DNA from: Syncephalis fuscata
Taxonomy: Eukaryota > Zoopagomycota > Zoopagomycetes > Zoopagales > Piptocephalidaceae
Direction: 5' to 3'
Length of the DNA: 64,000 bases
Assembly: GCA_025786725.1 (NCBI GenBank)
Contig: JAHLTZ010000010.1
Location: 682,001 to 746,000, forward strand
The notes under the pieces were generated by a model. That model saw only the letters and a list, made by a program, of their open reading frames with translations. It did no database searches and was not told the DNA's origin. The position numbers and the translations under genes were made by a program. Shown in pieces: positions 7,641 through 24,530 of the stretch (its first letter is position 1; the number at the start of each line of letters is the position of its first letter).

Positions 7641-8854
7641 TAAAATTAAACTGGTTATTTAAAGCGTTCAATATCAATTTAGCAATTAAATAATTCGAAT
7701 TACATGAAAGTATTATTCCTTTGATCAACTCAAATTAGTTAGTTGGTCATCAAGCAAGAGTGAAGATATGCAAAATAAAGCCGCCAACATGGCATTTGTC
7801 ATTGATAAACTAGAATAATCTACTCGTAACATTATTCTTAAATGTCGCAGTAGTTGCTCCAATATTCTAATTTAGAAAAGTTATGGAACATGGTAAAAAA
7901 AGCTTAAGAGGATGTTGTGGTGGATTATTTAAACCACTTGCTTTGTATTAAATCTTATGATATTTTCATTAACTAAATAAAGATAACTTTTCACAATATT
8001 AAGCACACTATTGGTTGTTTAATCTGATTTGGCAGTTAAATAGTTATAATAATCACACATTTAAACCAGCTATTTATTTTATTGAAGATGAAAATGGGTG
8101 TTGAATGTCATTGATCATTAAACTATTTACTTATCATTATTATTGTACTGTACATATCTATCCTGTATACATATATTATATGTCCATCTATATCATTAAT
8201 AATGTAAATTATAAAAACTATATTAAAAAAAGCTAAAAGTTTATTGCTAACTGTATTCTTTCAGTAGTTTTTGATTCATTTCGTTCATGACTCTTGGTTA
8301 ATTGCATACAGTAGTTTCACTATCATTATTCACATATTCGTTCTGTCTACTTATTTTGTATTATAATATTTATGCTTTATTGCCATGTTTTATTAAAAAA
8401 CGCTTTTATTCTAATTTCAGCATAATGTTACTTAGCTATATGATAATGATAGCTTTGCTACTATCCATACCAATCTATACCTATAGCTTAGGCAATATAT
8501 CATACACACTTTGTTATTAATTTAACTATTTGATTAATAATTGTCAATTATTGGATACAAATAGAACATGATTATAGATGTAGCAATTTGATTGTATATA
8601 TCTAAGATGAAACCATAATTTATTACTATAAGCTTACACAGTTGAATAGAAACAACTAGATGCAAACTTGTTAATAAAATAACGATTCCATTGGTTAAAG
8701 ACTGGATAAACCGGAGCATTGGCCAAAACTTGATATATAAATAGACTGGACGGCGTAGTTGTCAAATGGTCTTGATTTTCACCGAATATATACCTAAAGT
8801 GTATTGGAATAATGGCTTGATTGCACTACCAATGCTGATGTCTTGAAACCATGA
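7641..8854. other. AT-rich intergenic region without a recognisable gene
   Basis: Holds short random ORFs only, including a hydrophobic 72-codon frame at 8302-8520 with no start context, homolog or splice sites that I can support. The last few hundred bases are the likely 3' UTR of the minus-strand secreted-peptide gene that ends at 8855. Confidence 0.4.
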
Positions 8855-10498
8855 TTATGCTGTATTTACAAATAAAGATATTATATGTCATATAATTAAT
8901 GTATAAGCCATCGATATGCAATACTACTTACACGCTGTTAATATTAAATAATCAATACAGTCAGTAAATAGCGTGGTTAATATATGGTCAGTTAATATAC
9001 AATAGTACTTACGGCCTATTGATATTGAATTATTTATAGGCATAACACATGGTATGTAATTAGTGCATAGTCAGTTAATATATAATACTACTTACATGCT
9101 ATTAATATTAAGATAGTTATAGTTATAATGTATGGTGCATAATTAGTGCATAGTCAGTTAATATATGATACAACTTACGGTCTATTAATATTAAGTTGTT
9201 TATACGCATAATGTATAATACATAATTAGTACATATTAATTTAGTATAATACAACTTACACCCTATTGATATTGAATTATTTATACGCATAATACACGGT
9301 ACATAATTAGTATATATTCATTCAATATATAATACAACTTACAGCCTATTAATATTAGGTTATTTATACGCATAATACATGGTACATAATTAGCCAGTAG
9401 TCAGACAGTATATAATACTACTTACCAGCTATTAATATTAGGTTATTTATACGCATAATACATGATACATAATTAGTGCATAATCAGCCAATATATAATA
9501 CAACTTACTCCCTATTAATGTTGTTATTTATACACATAATACATGGTACATAATTAGTGCAGCCAGTTAATATATAATACAACTTACATACTATTAATAT
9601 TAATATAGTTATAGTCATAATGTATAATAAATAATTAGTGCAGTCAGTTAATATATAATACAACTTACCAGCTATTAATATTAGGTTATTTATACGCATA
9701 ATACATGATACATAATTAGTGCATAATCAGCCAATATATAATACAACTTACTCCCTATTAATGTTGTTATTTATACGCATAATACATGGTACATAATTAG
9801 TGCATAATCAGCCAATATATAGTATAACTTACAACCTATTAATATTAAGTCATTTATACACATAATACGTGGTACATAATTAGTGCGTAGTCAGTTAATA
9901 TATAATACAACTTACATGCTATTAATATTAAGTTGTTTATACACATAATACATGGTACATAATTAGTGCATAGTCAGTCAATATATAATACAACTTACGT
10001 TCTATTAATTTGAATTATTTATACGCATAATACATGATACGCAATTAGTGCATAGTTAGTCAGTATATAATATAACTTACTTGCTATTAATTTGGATTGT
10101 TTATACGCATAATACATGGTACACAATTAGTACATAGTCAATCAATATATAATACAACTTACGTTCTATTAATTTGAATTATTTATACGTATAATACATA
10201 GTACACAATTAGTGCATAGTCAGTCAATATATAATACGACTTACCAGCTATTAATATTAAGTTATTTATACGCATAATACATGGTATATAATTATTGCAT
10301 ATTTATTTAATCTATAATACAACTTACCCCCTATTAATATTAAGTAGAAATACTGTTAGTAAGCATAATAATATGATATATCTATTGTTATTGCAACATA
10401 CCAGCACGACGAACTAAGGCTGGATTAGCGCCCACCATGGCTGTACTGGCCGCAAGAGCCACGACAATGGTGCAAACGACGGCAATGGAAAGCTTCAT
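8855..10498 (-). CDS. Putative secreted peptide encoded by a chain of 18 three-nucleotide exons
   Basis: Exon 1 (10402-10498, 97 nt, phase 1) encodes a clear signal peptide (MKLSIAVVCTIVVALAAS, likely cut after MVGA), then NPALVRRA with a Kex2-like RR site. Downstream are 19 introns. Between them lie 18 exons of exactly 3 nt, in transcript order at 10328-10330, 10245-10247, 10163-10165, 10081-10083, 9999-10001, 9916-9918, 9833-9835, 9752-9754, 9669-9671, 9588-9590, 9509-9511, 9426-9428, 9343-9345, 9260-9262, 9179-9181, 9096-9098, 9013-9015 and 8932-8934. The terminal exon (8855-8859) gives CA plus the TAA stop. Every intron starts with GT and ends with AG; the 18 donors after micro-exons are all GTAAGT. 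In the phase set by exon 1, the joined triplets read without a stop as G-A-E-P-K-P-C-W-T-V-W-T-G-W-Y-P-C-P-S, giving a 51-residue precursor with a two-Cys, Trp-rich tail. A TATA-like TTAAATA lies at 10636-10642. The gene is inferred; skipping the whole array as one intron would also keep frame (ending RRAA). Confidence 0.6.
8935..10331 (-). repeat. Tandem array of intron-like 76-80 bp units separated by single variable triplets
   Basis: Seventeen units of 76-80 bp lie between 18 micro-exons, with a related half-unit at each end. Read on the minus strand, each unit runs from GTAAGTTGTATTATATATT-like sequence, through a tgcactaatta block that supplies a CTAAT branch site, to TTAATATTAATAG-like sequence. 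The donor hexamer is invariant, and the AG acceptor is kept in all units. The triplet between units is different: 13 distinct triplets occur among 18. Units after micro-exons at 9669/9752 and 9426/9509 are almost identical, showing a recent two-unit duplication. This is not an ordinary minisatellite, because the only hypervariable bases are exactly the three between acceptor and donor. Confidence 0.9.
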
Positions 10499-10635
10499 GG
10501 TGATATTTATTTGTTAAAACAAACAAATAAGAGAGATAATAGAGTGTGGTTGGTATAGAGTAGAGAGTAGTGCGTGTATAGCAAGAAGTAGAGTGTGATG
10601 ATGATATCGCAGTTGGTTGTGTATATTTTGTGGGC

Positions 10636-10642
10636 TATTTAA
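10636..10642 (-). promoter_or_regulatory. TATA-like element of the micro-exon gene
   Basis: TTAAATA on the minus strand, about 140 bp upstream of the ATG at 10498. The CAP-domain secreted-protein gene at 46.5-47.0 kb has a TATATAA at about the same distance (136 bp). This supports a real promoter; it is inferred from sequence only. Confidence 0.45.
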
Positions 10643-10779: not shown

Positions 10780-11315
10780 GCTTCTTAGCTTTGACTTCAA
10801 CCTGCCCAGTCTTGATTTCAACCTGTTTGGCCTTGATTTCAACCTACCTGGTTTTTACTTCAATCTTCTCGGCATTTACACAAATGATACGGCAATTCCA
10901 ATGAGCAGTGCATATACGATAGAGATATGTACACCGTTCTGTGTTTTTTGTTTCACGGTCTAACTATTTGATAAAAACAAGTATATTGTTTGGTTTTGTG
11001 AAAACGATAATGGTGTTTTTCCTGTTACTTCCACCGAATGACTCGGGTCCCAACATCTGCATGCATACAAAATAACACATAACTTGCCCGGTCTTTATTT
11101 TAATCTGTTAGTCGTTTGCACGATTACTGTGATGCTGTTTATAATTTAGTGCATATACGATAAAAATAGATATTAGCCTGTATTTTTGTTGCACAATCTA
11201 ACTATTTGGTAAAAACAAGTATATTGTTTGGCTTTGTAAAACGATAACGATGTACTTGCCGCCATTTCTGTCGATTCAGTCCTCAATATCTGTTGCATAC
11301 AGAATAGCACACAAA
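10780..11315. repeat. 21-bp repeats and a 235-240 bp direct tandem duplication upstream of the micro-exon gene
   Basis: At about 10780-10870 a 21-bp unit (cttgatttcaacctgcctgg-like) occurs four times; translated on plus it would read LDFNLPG-like repeats. A longer direct duplication follows: 10861-11080 matches 11101-11315. Shared blocks include agtgcatatacgata, ctaactatttg(a/g)taaaaacaag, tatattgtttgg and gcatac(a/a)a(a/g)aata(a/g)cac. The second copy also starts with a degenerate 21-bp unit (cttgcccggtctttattttaatctg). No convincing coding role; both strands have short ORFs that follow the repetition. Confidence 0.7.
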
Positions 11316-23639: not shown

Positions 23640-24530
23640 TTTGAATAAACACATTGAAATGTTAGCTTTTTAAGACAAATACAACAATTATGTTTATTTT
23701 AAAAATAAATTTGAATGATTGGATATACACATTAAAATGATAGCTTTTTATTTAAAATACATACAACAGTTATGTTTGCTATGATAATAATGACCAAATG
23801 ATTGGATGTACACATTAAATGTTAGCACCTCATATAAAATAACTACTAATTATGTCTGCTACGATAATAAATGACTAAATAACTAAATAACATATTAAAA
23901 TGTTAGCTTTTATTTAAAATAAATACAACATTATGTTTGCTATTATAATGAATGACAAATAATTGAATATACATATTAAAATGTTAGCTTTATTAAAATA
24001 ACTACGTAATATGTTGCTATGATAATAAATGACTAAATAACTAAATATACATATTAAATGTAGCTTTTATTTAAAATAAATACAACAGTTATATTTGCTA
24101 TGATAATAATGACAAATATTGATTACACATTAAATGTTAGATCATATAAATAACTACGTAATTATGCTGCTATATAATAAATGACTAAATAACTAAATAT
24201 ACATATTGAAATAATAGCTTTTTATTTAAAATAAATACAACAGTTATATTTGCTATTATAATGAATGACCAATGATTGGATATACACATTAAAATGTTAC
24301 TTATTATAACTACGTAATTATGTCTGCTATGATAATAAATGACTAAATAACTAAATATACATATTGAAATGATAGCTTTTATTTAAAATAAATACAACAG
24401 TTATGTTTGCTATGATAATGAATGACCAGATGATTGGATGTACACATTAAAATACTAGTTTTCTCTAAGATAAATACTGCAGTTATGTTTATTTTAATAA
24501 TAATGACTGAATAATTGAATAATGCTACTG
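23640..24530. repeat. Satellite array of alternating 85-bp unit types
   Basis: About ten units of roughly 80-90 bp, each with cacattaaaatg(t/a)tag, attatgtttgctat(g/a)ataat(a/g)aatgac and a taa-rich spacer. Two unit types alternate. One reads tagctttttatttaaaataaatacaacagttat and is followed by gaccaaatgattggatatacac. The other reads tataaaataactacgtaattatgtctgc and is followed by gactaaataactaaatatacat. The array is therefore a dimeric higher-order repeat of about 170 bp. Central units have lost single bases. There are no splice-like GTAAGT ends, unlike the 9-10 kb array. Confidence 0.8.

Follow-up and report, generated by a model that had tools for sequence, protein, structure and literature searches.

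The micro-exon genes (MEGs) of Schistosoma, 35 genes with 10-20 exons each and introns of 0.1-5 kb, are described as having exons of 6-81 bp, most often of 15 bp, with the lower end of the range also given as 3 bp (PMC10526429). The aphid bicycle genes, which are fast-evolving and encode putative secreted effectors, are likewise described as comprising many microexons in one phase that "start with codon position 2" (PMC9168663). The literature on splicing itself includes a 1-nt exon that is spliced in the Arabidopsis gene APC11, for which the authors propose intron definition and recursive splicing (PMC4674806), recursive (ratchet-point) splicing in flies, whereby a long intron is removed in several consecutive segments (PMC6110457), and fungal introner-like elements, which are multiplied families of similar spliceosomal introns (PMC4457414).

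Here we analyze a gene in a 64,000-nt stretch of DNA (hereafter, the window) from the zoopagomycete Syncephalis fuscata (family Piptocephalidaceae), together with its paralogues in the same genome (hereafter, array genes). Judging from the sequences, these genes are, with high probability, spliced codon by codon, constitutively and in order, and form a multigene family of secreted peptides. Array genes and Schistosoma MEGs alike encode secreted peptides with a signal peptide and variable tails, through many short exons that are mostly multiples of three, and both are hard to annotate automatically (PMC10526429). The array genes display the MEG hallmark of a signal-peptide exon that leads into a long series of short, symmetrical exons, but lie outside the MEG ranges of exon size and intron length: unlike in MEGs, 771 of the 809 internal exons consist of 3 nt, with up to 41 exons per in-frame gene, and the introns, mostly of 76-80 nt, form similar tandem units. 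The exons of aphid bicycle genes are larger, and their proteins longer, than those of array genes. A one-phase design of the microexons may be common to both, the phase numbering of the bicycle gene paper possibly differing from ours, and the description of this insect family, in the part at hand, includes no single-codon exons (PMC9168663). In APC11, a single tiny exon is found in one gene as opposed to the chain in array genes; on that 1-nt exon, Guo and Liu reasoned as we do here on 3-nt exons (PMC4674806). Unlike in the recursive splicing of flies, each step in an array gene would add 3 coding bases. At fly ratchet points, the acceptor and the donor abut, and the segments are not known to carry a coding payload. 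Introners are scattered through many genes, whereas array introns stand in tandem, all within a single gene family. The literature searched, which comprised few subscription journals and no bioRxiv preprints, yielded no account of 3-nt exons in chains. With an exon unit that amounts to one codon and is repeated without larger exons in between, the architecture appears to be new, standing at the far end of the microexon-gene idea.

Structure of the window gene

The gene lies on the minus strand, with the start ATG at 10498 and the stop TAA at 8857-8855 (Table 1). A first-pass annotation had described a 97-nt signal-peptide exon, 19 GT-AG introns and 18 segments of exactly 3 nt, all of which are present, the introns ranging in length from 71 to 80 nt. 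The donor after exon 1 is GTATGT and, in agreement with that annotation, the donors after the triplets are GTAAGT in all 18 cases; branch-like sites, earlier ascribed to each unit, were recovered as the motif yTAAy in 16 of the 17 internal introns. The signal peptide encoded by exon 1 ends ALVRRA, and the frame ends GAEPKPCWTVWTGWYPCPS-stop; the peptide G-A-E-P-K-P-C-W-T-V-W-T-G-W-Y-P-C-P-S-stop is reproduced letter for letter. The idea that each residue has its own exon stands only in part: the exons are codon-sized, but the codons straddle the triplets (phase 1), each triplet completing one codon with its first two bases and opening another with its third, and a residue does not strictly correspond to one exon.

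The acceptor ..AAATACAG also closes the array of locus L033 and those of 8 genes examined together, and in 10 of 18 array genes the stop comes directly after the first 2 nt of the last exon. Viewed as a tandem repeat, the array has a period of 83 and 16.5 copies. In the window, 21 copies of the motif AGNNNGTAAGT were counted, of which 18 fall within the array, compared to 1.76 +- 1.30 copies (largest value, 5) in 100 dinucleotide shuffles of the window. Because a tandem array alone would repeat splice-like motifs, the evidential weight was placed on the paralogues.

Upstream of the gene, 21-nt repeats (TTGATTTCAACCTG..) occupy positions 10787-10845 of the window, approximately 300 nt from the start codon; a similar stretch is located upstream of L014, and these are possible regulatory repeats. 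A second tandem array in the window, at 23644-24521, has an 81/158-nt period and contains no AGNNNGTAAGT site. In the neighbouring gene of the window, which we take to be an isoleucyl-tRNA synthetase, GTAAGT was found at 3 of the eight donors read by eye.

Table 1. Features of the window gene (positions in the window)
Feature	Position	Strand	Remark
TATA-like box TTAAATAG, conserved promoter	10635..10642	-	TTAAATAG or ATAAATAG upstream of examined paralogues
Exon 1, 97 nt	10402..10498	-	signal peptide + Kex2-like RR (MKLSIAVVCTIVVALAASTAMVGANPALVRRA + first base of next codon)
Intron 1, 71 nt	10331..10401	-	GTATGT..AG
3-nt exon 2	10328..10330	-	GGG
3-nt exon 3	10245..10247	-	CTG
3-nt exon 4	10163..10165	-	AAC
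3-nt exon 5	10081..10083	-	CAA
3-nt exon 6	9999..10001	-	AAC
3-nt exon 7	9916..9918	-	CAT
3-nt exon 8	9833..9835	-	GTT
3-nt exon 9	9752..9754	-	GGA
3-nt exon 10	9669..9671	-	CTG
3-nt exon 11	9588..9590	-	TAT
3-nt exon 12	9509..9511	-	GGA
3-nt exon 13	9426..9428	-	CTG
3-nt exon 14	9343..9345	-	GCT
3-nt exon 15	9260..9262	-	GGT
3-nt exon 16	9179..9181	-	ACC
3-nt exon 17	9096..9098	-	CAT
3-nt exon 18	9013..9015	-	GCC
3-nt exon 19	8932..8934	-	CGT
Introns 2-18, array, 76-80 nt each	8935..10327	-	GTAAGT..AG, between 3-nt exons
Last intron, 72 nt	8860..8931	-	acceptor ..AAATACAG
Start of last exon	8855..8859	-	last two bases of Ser codon + stop TAA (8857-8855)
Conserved 3' segment TTTCAAGACATCAGCATTGG	8829..8848	-	common to array genes and some intronless members

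The gene family and its splice parse

The genome searched comprises 28.95 Mb in 299 contigs. A search with the array DNA gave at least 104 matches, which were merged by eye into at least 40 places (the best 40 of 253 candidates were scored), and a search with the exon-1 peptide gave at least 150 matches (150 of 295 candidates were scored, and all 150 were hits). We fetched 38 loci around matched places, followed by 7 and 10 short ones. In the 38 loci and the window, the gap between AATAG and GTAAGT, considering only strands that carry four or more sites with the two motifs 0-15 nt apart, is exactly 3 nt at 739 of 743 sites. Genome-wide, the pattern TTAATAG-N(0-12)-GTAAGT occurs at 2053 sites, with a gap of exactly 3 at 1992 of these, as against 52 matches of the reversed control pattern for the 0-12 gap and 1 for the 3-nt gap. 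This strict pattern recovers 380 of the 771 parsed 3-nt exons, and extrapolation yields about 4000 such exons for the assembly, a rough figure that includes assembly duplicates.

The array genes were parsed with a dynamic program that takes its donor and acceptor profiles from the loci themselves and leaves the exon length free between 1 and 12 nt at a flat cost; profiles trained on triplet-flanking sites favour such sites, and the frame statistics presented below are independent of that choice. The parse succeeded for 33 of the 38 array genes with a recognized exon 1; the 3' anchor was not located by the script in L019, L025, L035 and L052, and exon 1 of L022 is not followed by an acceptable donor. 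L027, L045, L046 and the second array gene of L034 were left out because no start matched the pattern. Among the 809 internal exons, 771 are of 3 nt and 29 of 6 nt, the 6-nt exon being the third micro-exon in 9 of 26 genes; altogether, 800 exon lengths are multiples of three. The 9 frame-breaking exons are found in 8 of the 33 genes (L011, L014, L023, L034, L038, L039, L040 and L042); in both 10-nt exons of L014, GTAATT comes right after the initial triplet, and the parser may have overlooked 3-nt exons here. In all 33 parsed genes, exon 1 ends in phase 1, leaving one base of the next codon, so that the internal exons take up the frame at codon position 2. The donor is GTAAGT in 710 of 809 cases, and the introns, mostly of 76-80 nt across the parsed genes, have GT-AG ends, a branch-like site and TTAATAG-like acceptors. 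An earlier parse, in which exons of up to 100 nt were allowed, gave 3 nt for 521 of 567 exons, and its longer "exons" mostly look like two short exons with an unrecognized intron.

Several other features of these loci were observed. An inserted element of approximately 400-800 nt, with TTTTATTTT tracts and a GAAGAGCTTGTGAGCC-like start, is located near the donor in 10 long array introns, in L010, L018, L024, L029, L030, L037, L038 and L041; several of these elements are followed by a second copy of about 14-18 nt of the local intron, as from target-primed reverse transcription. A family member at L052:245-1100 seems to mix 9-nt, 33-nt and 3-nt exons and is perhaps transitional; the public gene model P0013 shares exon 1 and the stretch DDTDVVYMRP with L052. 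In L048, an array member and an intronless member adjoin in the same orientation. The public automatic gene models are at odds with the parse: P0008 (BDF19DRAFT_436981) continues into array intron 4 of L037, and no exact match of this model to array exons was obtained; part of the tail of public model P0009 is intron-like sequence common to many arrays.

All matches listed in protein searches with the family were from Syncephalis fuscata, in a database that may lack other Syncephalis proteomes, and the family may extend beyond this species. The bare mature peptide of L028 gave no match as a query in a search that included no positive control. In Pfam, the spliced L044 peptide scored 21.7 bits against PF00451 (scorpion short toxin), below the cut-off of 25.1, and nothing above the cut-off was detected for 4 other proteins and 10 intronless members; the same holds for PDB, with P0006 as the sole query, and for Rfam, with the window as the query. 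A single-sequence AlphaFold model of the intronless P0006, with a helical mature part, has a mean pLDDT of 66, which is too weak for use.

Statistical evidence for codons assembled across introns

The frame statistics were obtained for the 25 genes without frame-breaking exons, with 578 internal exons (9-41 per gene), defining a cross-intron codon as the last base of exon i joined to the first two bases of exon i+1. A stop was found at only 1 of the 578 i to i+1 junctions (0.2%), namely the terminal stop of L013, compared to 4.2-7.6% at the i+2 to i+8 junctions, and Cys accounts for 17.6% of the codons at the former as opposed to 5.2-11.1% at the latter. When exon order was permuted 10000 times within genes, the last codon of each gene being left out, the observed 0 stops among 574 codons contrasted with 32.9 +- 4.3 (minimum 17), and the observed 89 Cys codons with 51.4 +- 5.0 (maximum 70); with close duplicates removed (15 genes), there were 0 stops among 356 codons versus 20.8 +- 3.4 (minimum 7). 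Decoy triplets taken at eight fixed intron offsets showed no comparable drop in stops between neighbours, the nearest being offset 38, with 0.2% versus 0.7-1.0%, all rare. The selection of frame-intact genes discards frameshifts, not stops, and hence does not create the zero-stop result. Splicing in exon order predicts just this, namely that bases separated by about 80 nt depend on one another. The proposal of the first-pass annotation that the triplets are single-codon exons thus appears to hold and to extend to a large family, the frame being free of stops only when the triplets are joined in order.

Stops are also scarce when the triplets themselves are read as codons (phase 0; 0 of 408 in 18 genes and 6 of 739 in the fetched loci), so that this scarcity does not decide the frame; the phase-0 reading was set aside, the frame being decided by exon 1, by the arrangement of the Cys residues and by the terminal stop. 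In the 8 genes with a large inserted element in their introns, the tail is in frame in 7. The Trp-rich loop framed by two Cys that was noted in the window gene is not the common form of the tail: among the 25 in-frame genes, 14 have tails with 5 or 6 Cys in place of such a loop, 3 have 3 or 4, and 8, including the window gene, have 0-2.

These statistics bear directly on other explanations of the arrays. Under one of these, the array is a satellite-like repeat within one large intron, such that 8860-10401 is removed whole and the triplets never enter the mRNA. Tandem repeats do occur within introns, and a direct join between exon 1 and the last exon stays in phase and meets a stop at once (inspected in 7 genes; RAA-stop in that of the window). 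However, a single intron leaves unexplained the lack of stops in 574 cross-intron codons where 32.9 +- 4.3 are expected from permutation, the Cys enrichment in consecutive joins, the 800 of 809 exon lengths that are multiples of three, and the ungapped homology between L044 and a contiguous peptide (see below); we rejected this interpretation, which we consider very improbable, on the cross-intron codon statistics. It is hardly credible that the array genes are decaying, non-functional pseudogenes invaded by intron-like elements through introner spread, given that 25 of the 33 are in frame over up to 41 exons, with 574 codons free of stops, even though exons break the frame in 8 of the 33, no acceptable donor follows exon 1 in L022, and introner-like elements are known in fungi (PMC4457414).

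Each gene could also serve as a combinatorial library that yields many peptides through the skipping of single-codon exons. Skips of 3-nt exons all keep the frame by length, and the authors of the schistosome microexon-gene paper consider the diversity that alternative splicing may generate (PMC10526429). The junctions that skipping would create are nevertheless unprotected, with stops at 4.2-7.6% from i+2 to i+8 as opposed to 0.2% at i+1, and skipping would alter the Cys spacing. Because skip joins to i+2 or further restore stops, exon order appears to be set for full inclusion, and skipping as the main role of the arrays was rejected as improbable, although it may occur at a low level. Finally, RNA splicing might be replaced by ribosome hopping or by excision at the DNA level, as known for internally eliminated sequences in ciliates, in line with the existence of intronless paralogues in the same genome. 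The probability of either appears vanishingly small: the segment ends are spliceosomal, with GTAAGT at 710 of 809 donors, TTAATAG-like acceptors and yTAAy motifs, and the intronless copies examined are diverged paralogues rather than excised forms of the array loci compared, with 16 of 31 residues identical in the best pair.

Intronless relatives and a model of array evolution

In addition to the array genes, several family members have one open frame, with a promoter and a signal peptide of the array-gene kind. The product of one of these, in L050, is identical to the hypothetical protein BDF19DRAFT_419028 of Syncephalis fuscata; an opposite-strand reading downstream of this gene presumably encodes a fungalysin-type metalloprotease. 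Four Cys columns of the mature part are invariant in 11 intronless members. The single-codon-exon reading gains from these paralogues, which encode related peptides contiguously. The peptide of L044, spliced from 31 micro-exons (30 of 3 nt and one of 6), aligns with the contiguous peptide of L058 without gaps over 31 residues, 16 of them identical, with a score of 94 versus at most 53 in 300 permutations of exon order. L020, L021, L028 and L043 also beat all 300 permutations against intronless peptides, and the real score was matched by 1 of 300 permutations for L026, 3 of 300 for L017 and 4 of 300 for L031. Thus, 8 of the 18 in-frame genes tested have an intronless match better than nearly all permutations; the remaining 10 have no clear intronless match, and these include the window gene, for which 240 of 300 permutations were as good.

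In a tree of the promoter and exon 1 (56 rows), the array and intronless types are mixed, with 8 changes of type, at least 3 of which are forced by well-supported branches, and accordingly the two forms have interconverted. Repeated intron loss through cDNA is the direction that we favour. Within genes, introns at offset 1 are more alike than those at offset 8 in 15 of 15 genes. L040 and L044 have introns 1-13 in common and in order, followed by divergence, and L021 and L036 have both ends in common, with no one-to-one matching in the middle. In 7 of 8 close paralogue pairs, divergence is greater in the triplets than in the introns around them, for example, 51.9% versus 7.6% in L013/L016 and 14.8% versus 5.0% between the window gene and L009, the exception being L038/L039 (1.2% versus 2.7%). 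Pooled over 7 pairs, the triplet changes give pS of 0.314 and pN of 0.190; positive selection on the triplets is plausible, but because synonymous changes are raised as well, it is not established as the sole cause of their fast change. Where a triplet has changed, the surrounding introns tend to be somewhat less alike, pointing to a contribution from the replacement of whole units of intron plus triplet.

Taken together, these observations can be cast in a model in which the family encodes small peptides that are secreted, bear a signal peptide and a dibasic (Kex2-like) site and, when longer, are rich in cysteine. In the array genes, the mature peptide is distributed in its entirety across 9 to 41 exons, nearly all codon-sized (one array gene with parse problems has about 48), with spliceosomal introns of about 79 nt in between. 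As read from the sequence, the array genes consist of a conserved promoter, a phase-1 exon 1, single-codon exons and a conserved last exon with the stop, and the codons are, on the statistical evidence, assembled across introns. With acceptor and donor 3 nt apart, neighbouring introns could hardly be spliced at once and exon definition looks impossible, so that removal of the introns one after another is most likely. Splicing would then proceed by intron definition, in a ratchet-like or recursive manner, each event rebuilding the next donor by placing the growing exon before the next GTAAGT. The near-uniform donors fit such consecutive intron-defined splicing and may not need exonic pairing to U1, which would aid it. 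Comparison of the arrays points to tandem duplication of units of intron plus 3 nt, along with fast triplet change, as their probable mode of growth, and switching between the array and intronless forms would have occurred several times, probably through cDNA.

A review describes Syncephalis as mycoparasitic (PMC10386755). The organism attacks other fungi, and the effector-like role proposed for the peptide in the first-pass annotation is hypothetical; that the peptides are weapons or signals against fungal hosts or rivals is a weak suggestion. About as likely as not is the broader view that the codon-sized exon serves as the unit of protein evolution in this fungus: tandem cassettes of intron plus codon would be duplicated, lost and mutated into a large, rapidly changing arsenal of disulfide-rich peptides, perhaps 4000 single-codon exons across the genome would be ratchet-spliced one after another, and successful peptides would from time to time be fixed as intronless genes through cDNA. 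Should transcripts confirm the splicing, the array genes would represent an extreme of gene interruption, in which a compact fungal genome contains genes broken up dozens of times, at almost every codon. Such splicing would challenge the limits on exon size and on the use of two splice sites 3 nt apart, and would offer a natural system for the study of sequential splicing, with tens of steps per transcript. It would also suggest codon-by-codon evolution of peptides, in a family that the public gene models examined here do not capture.
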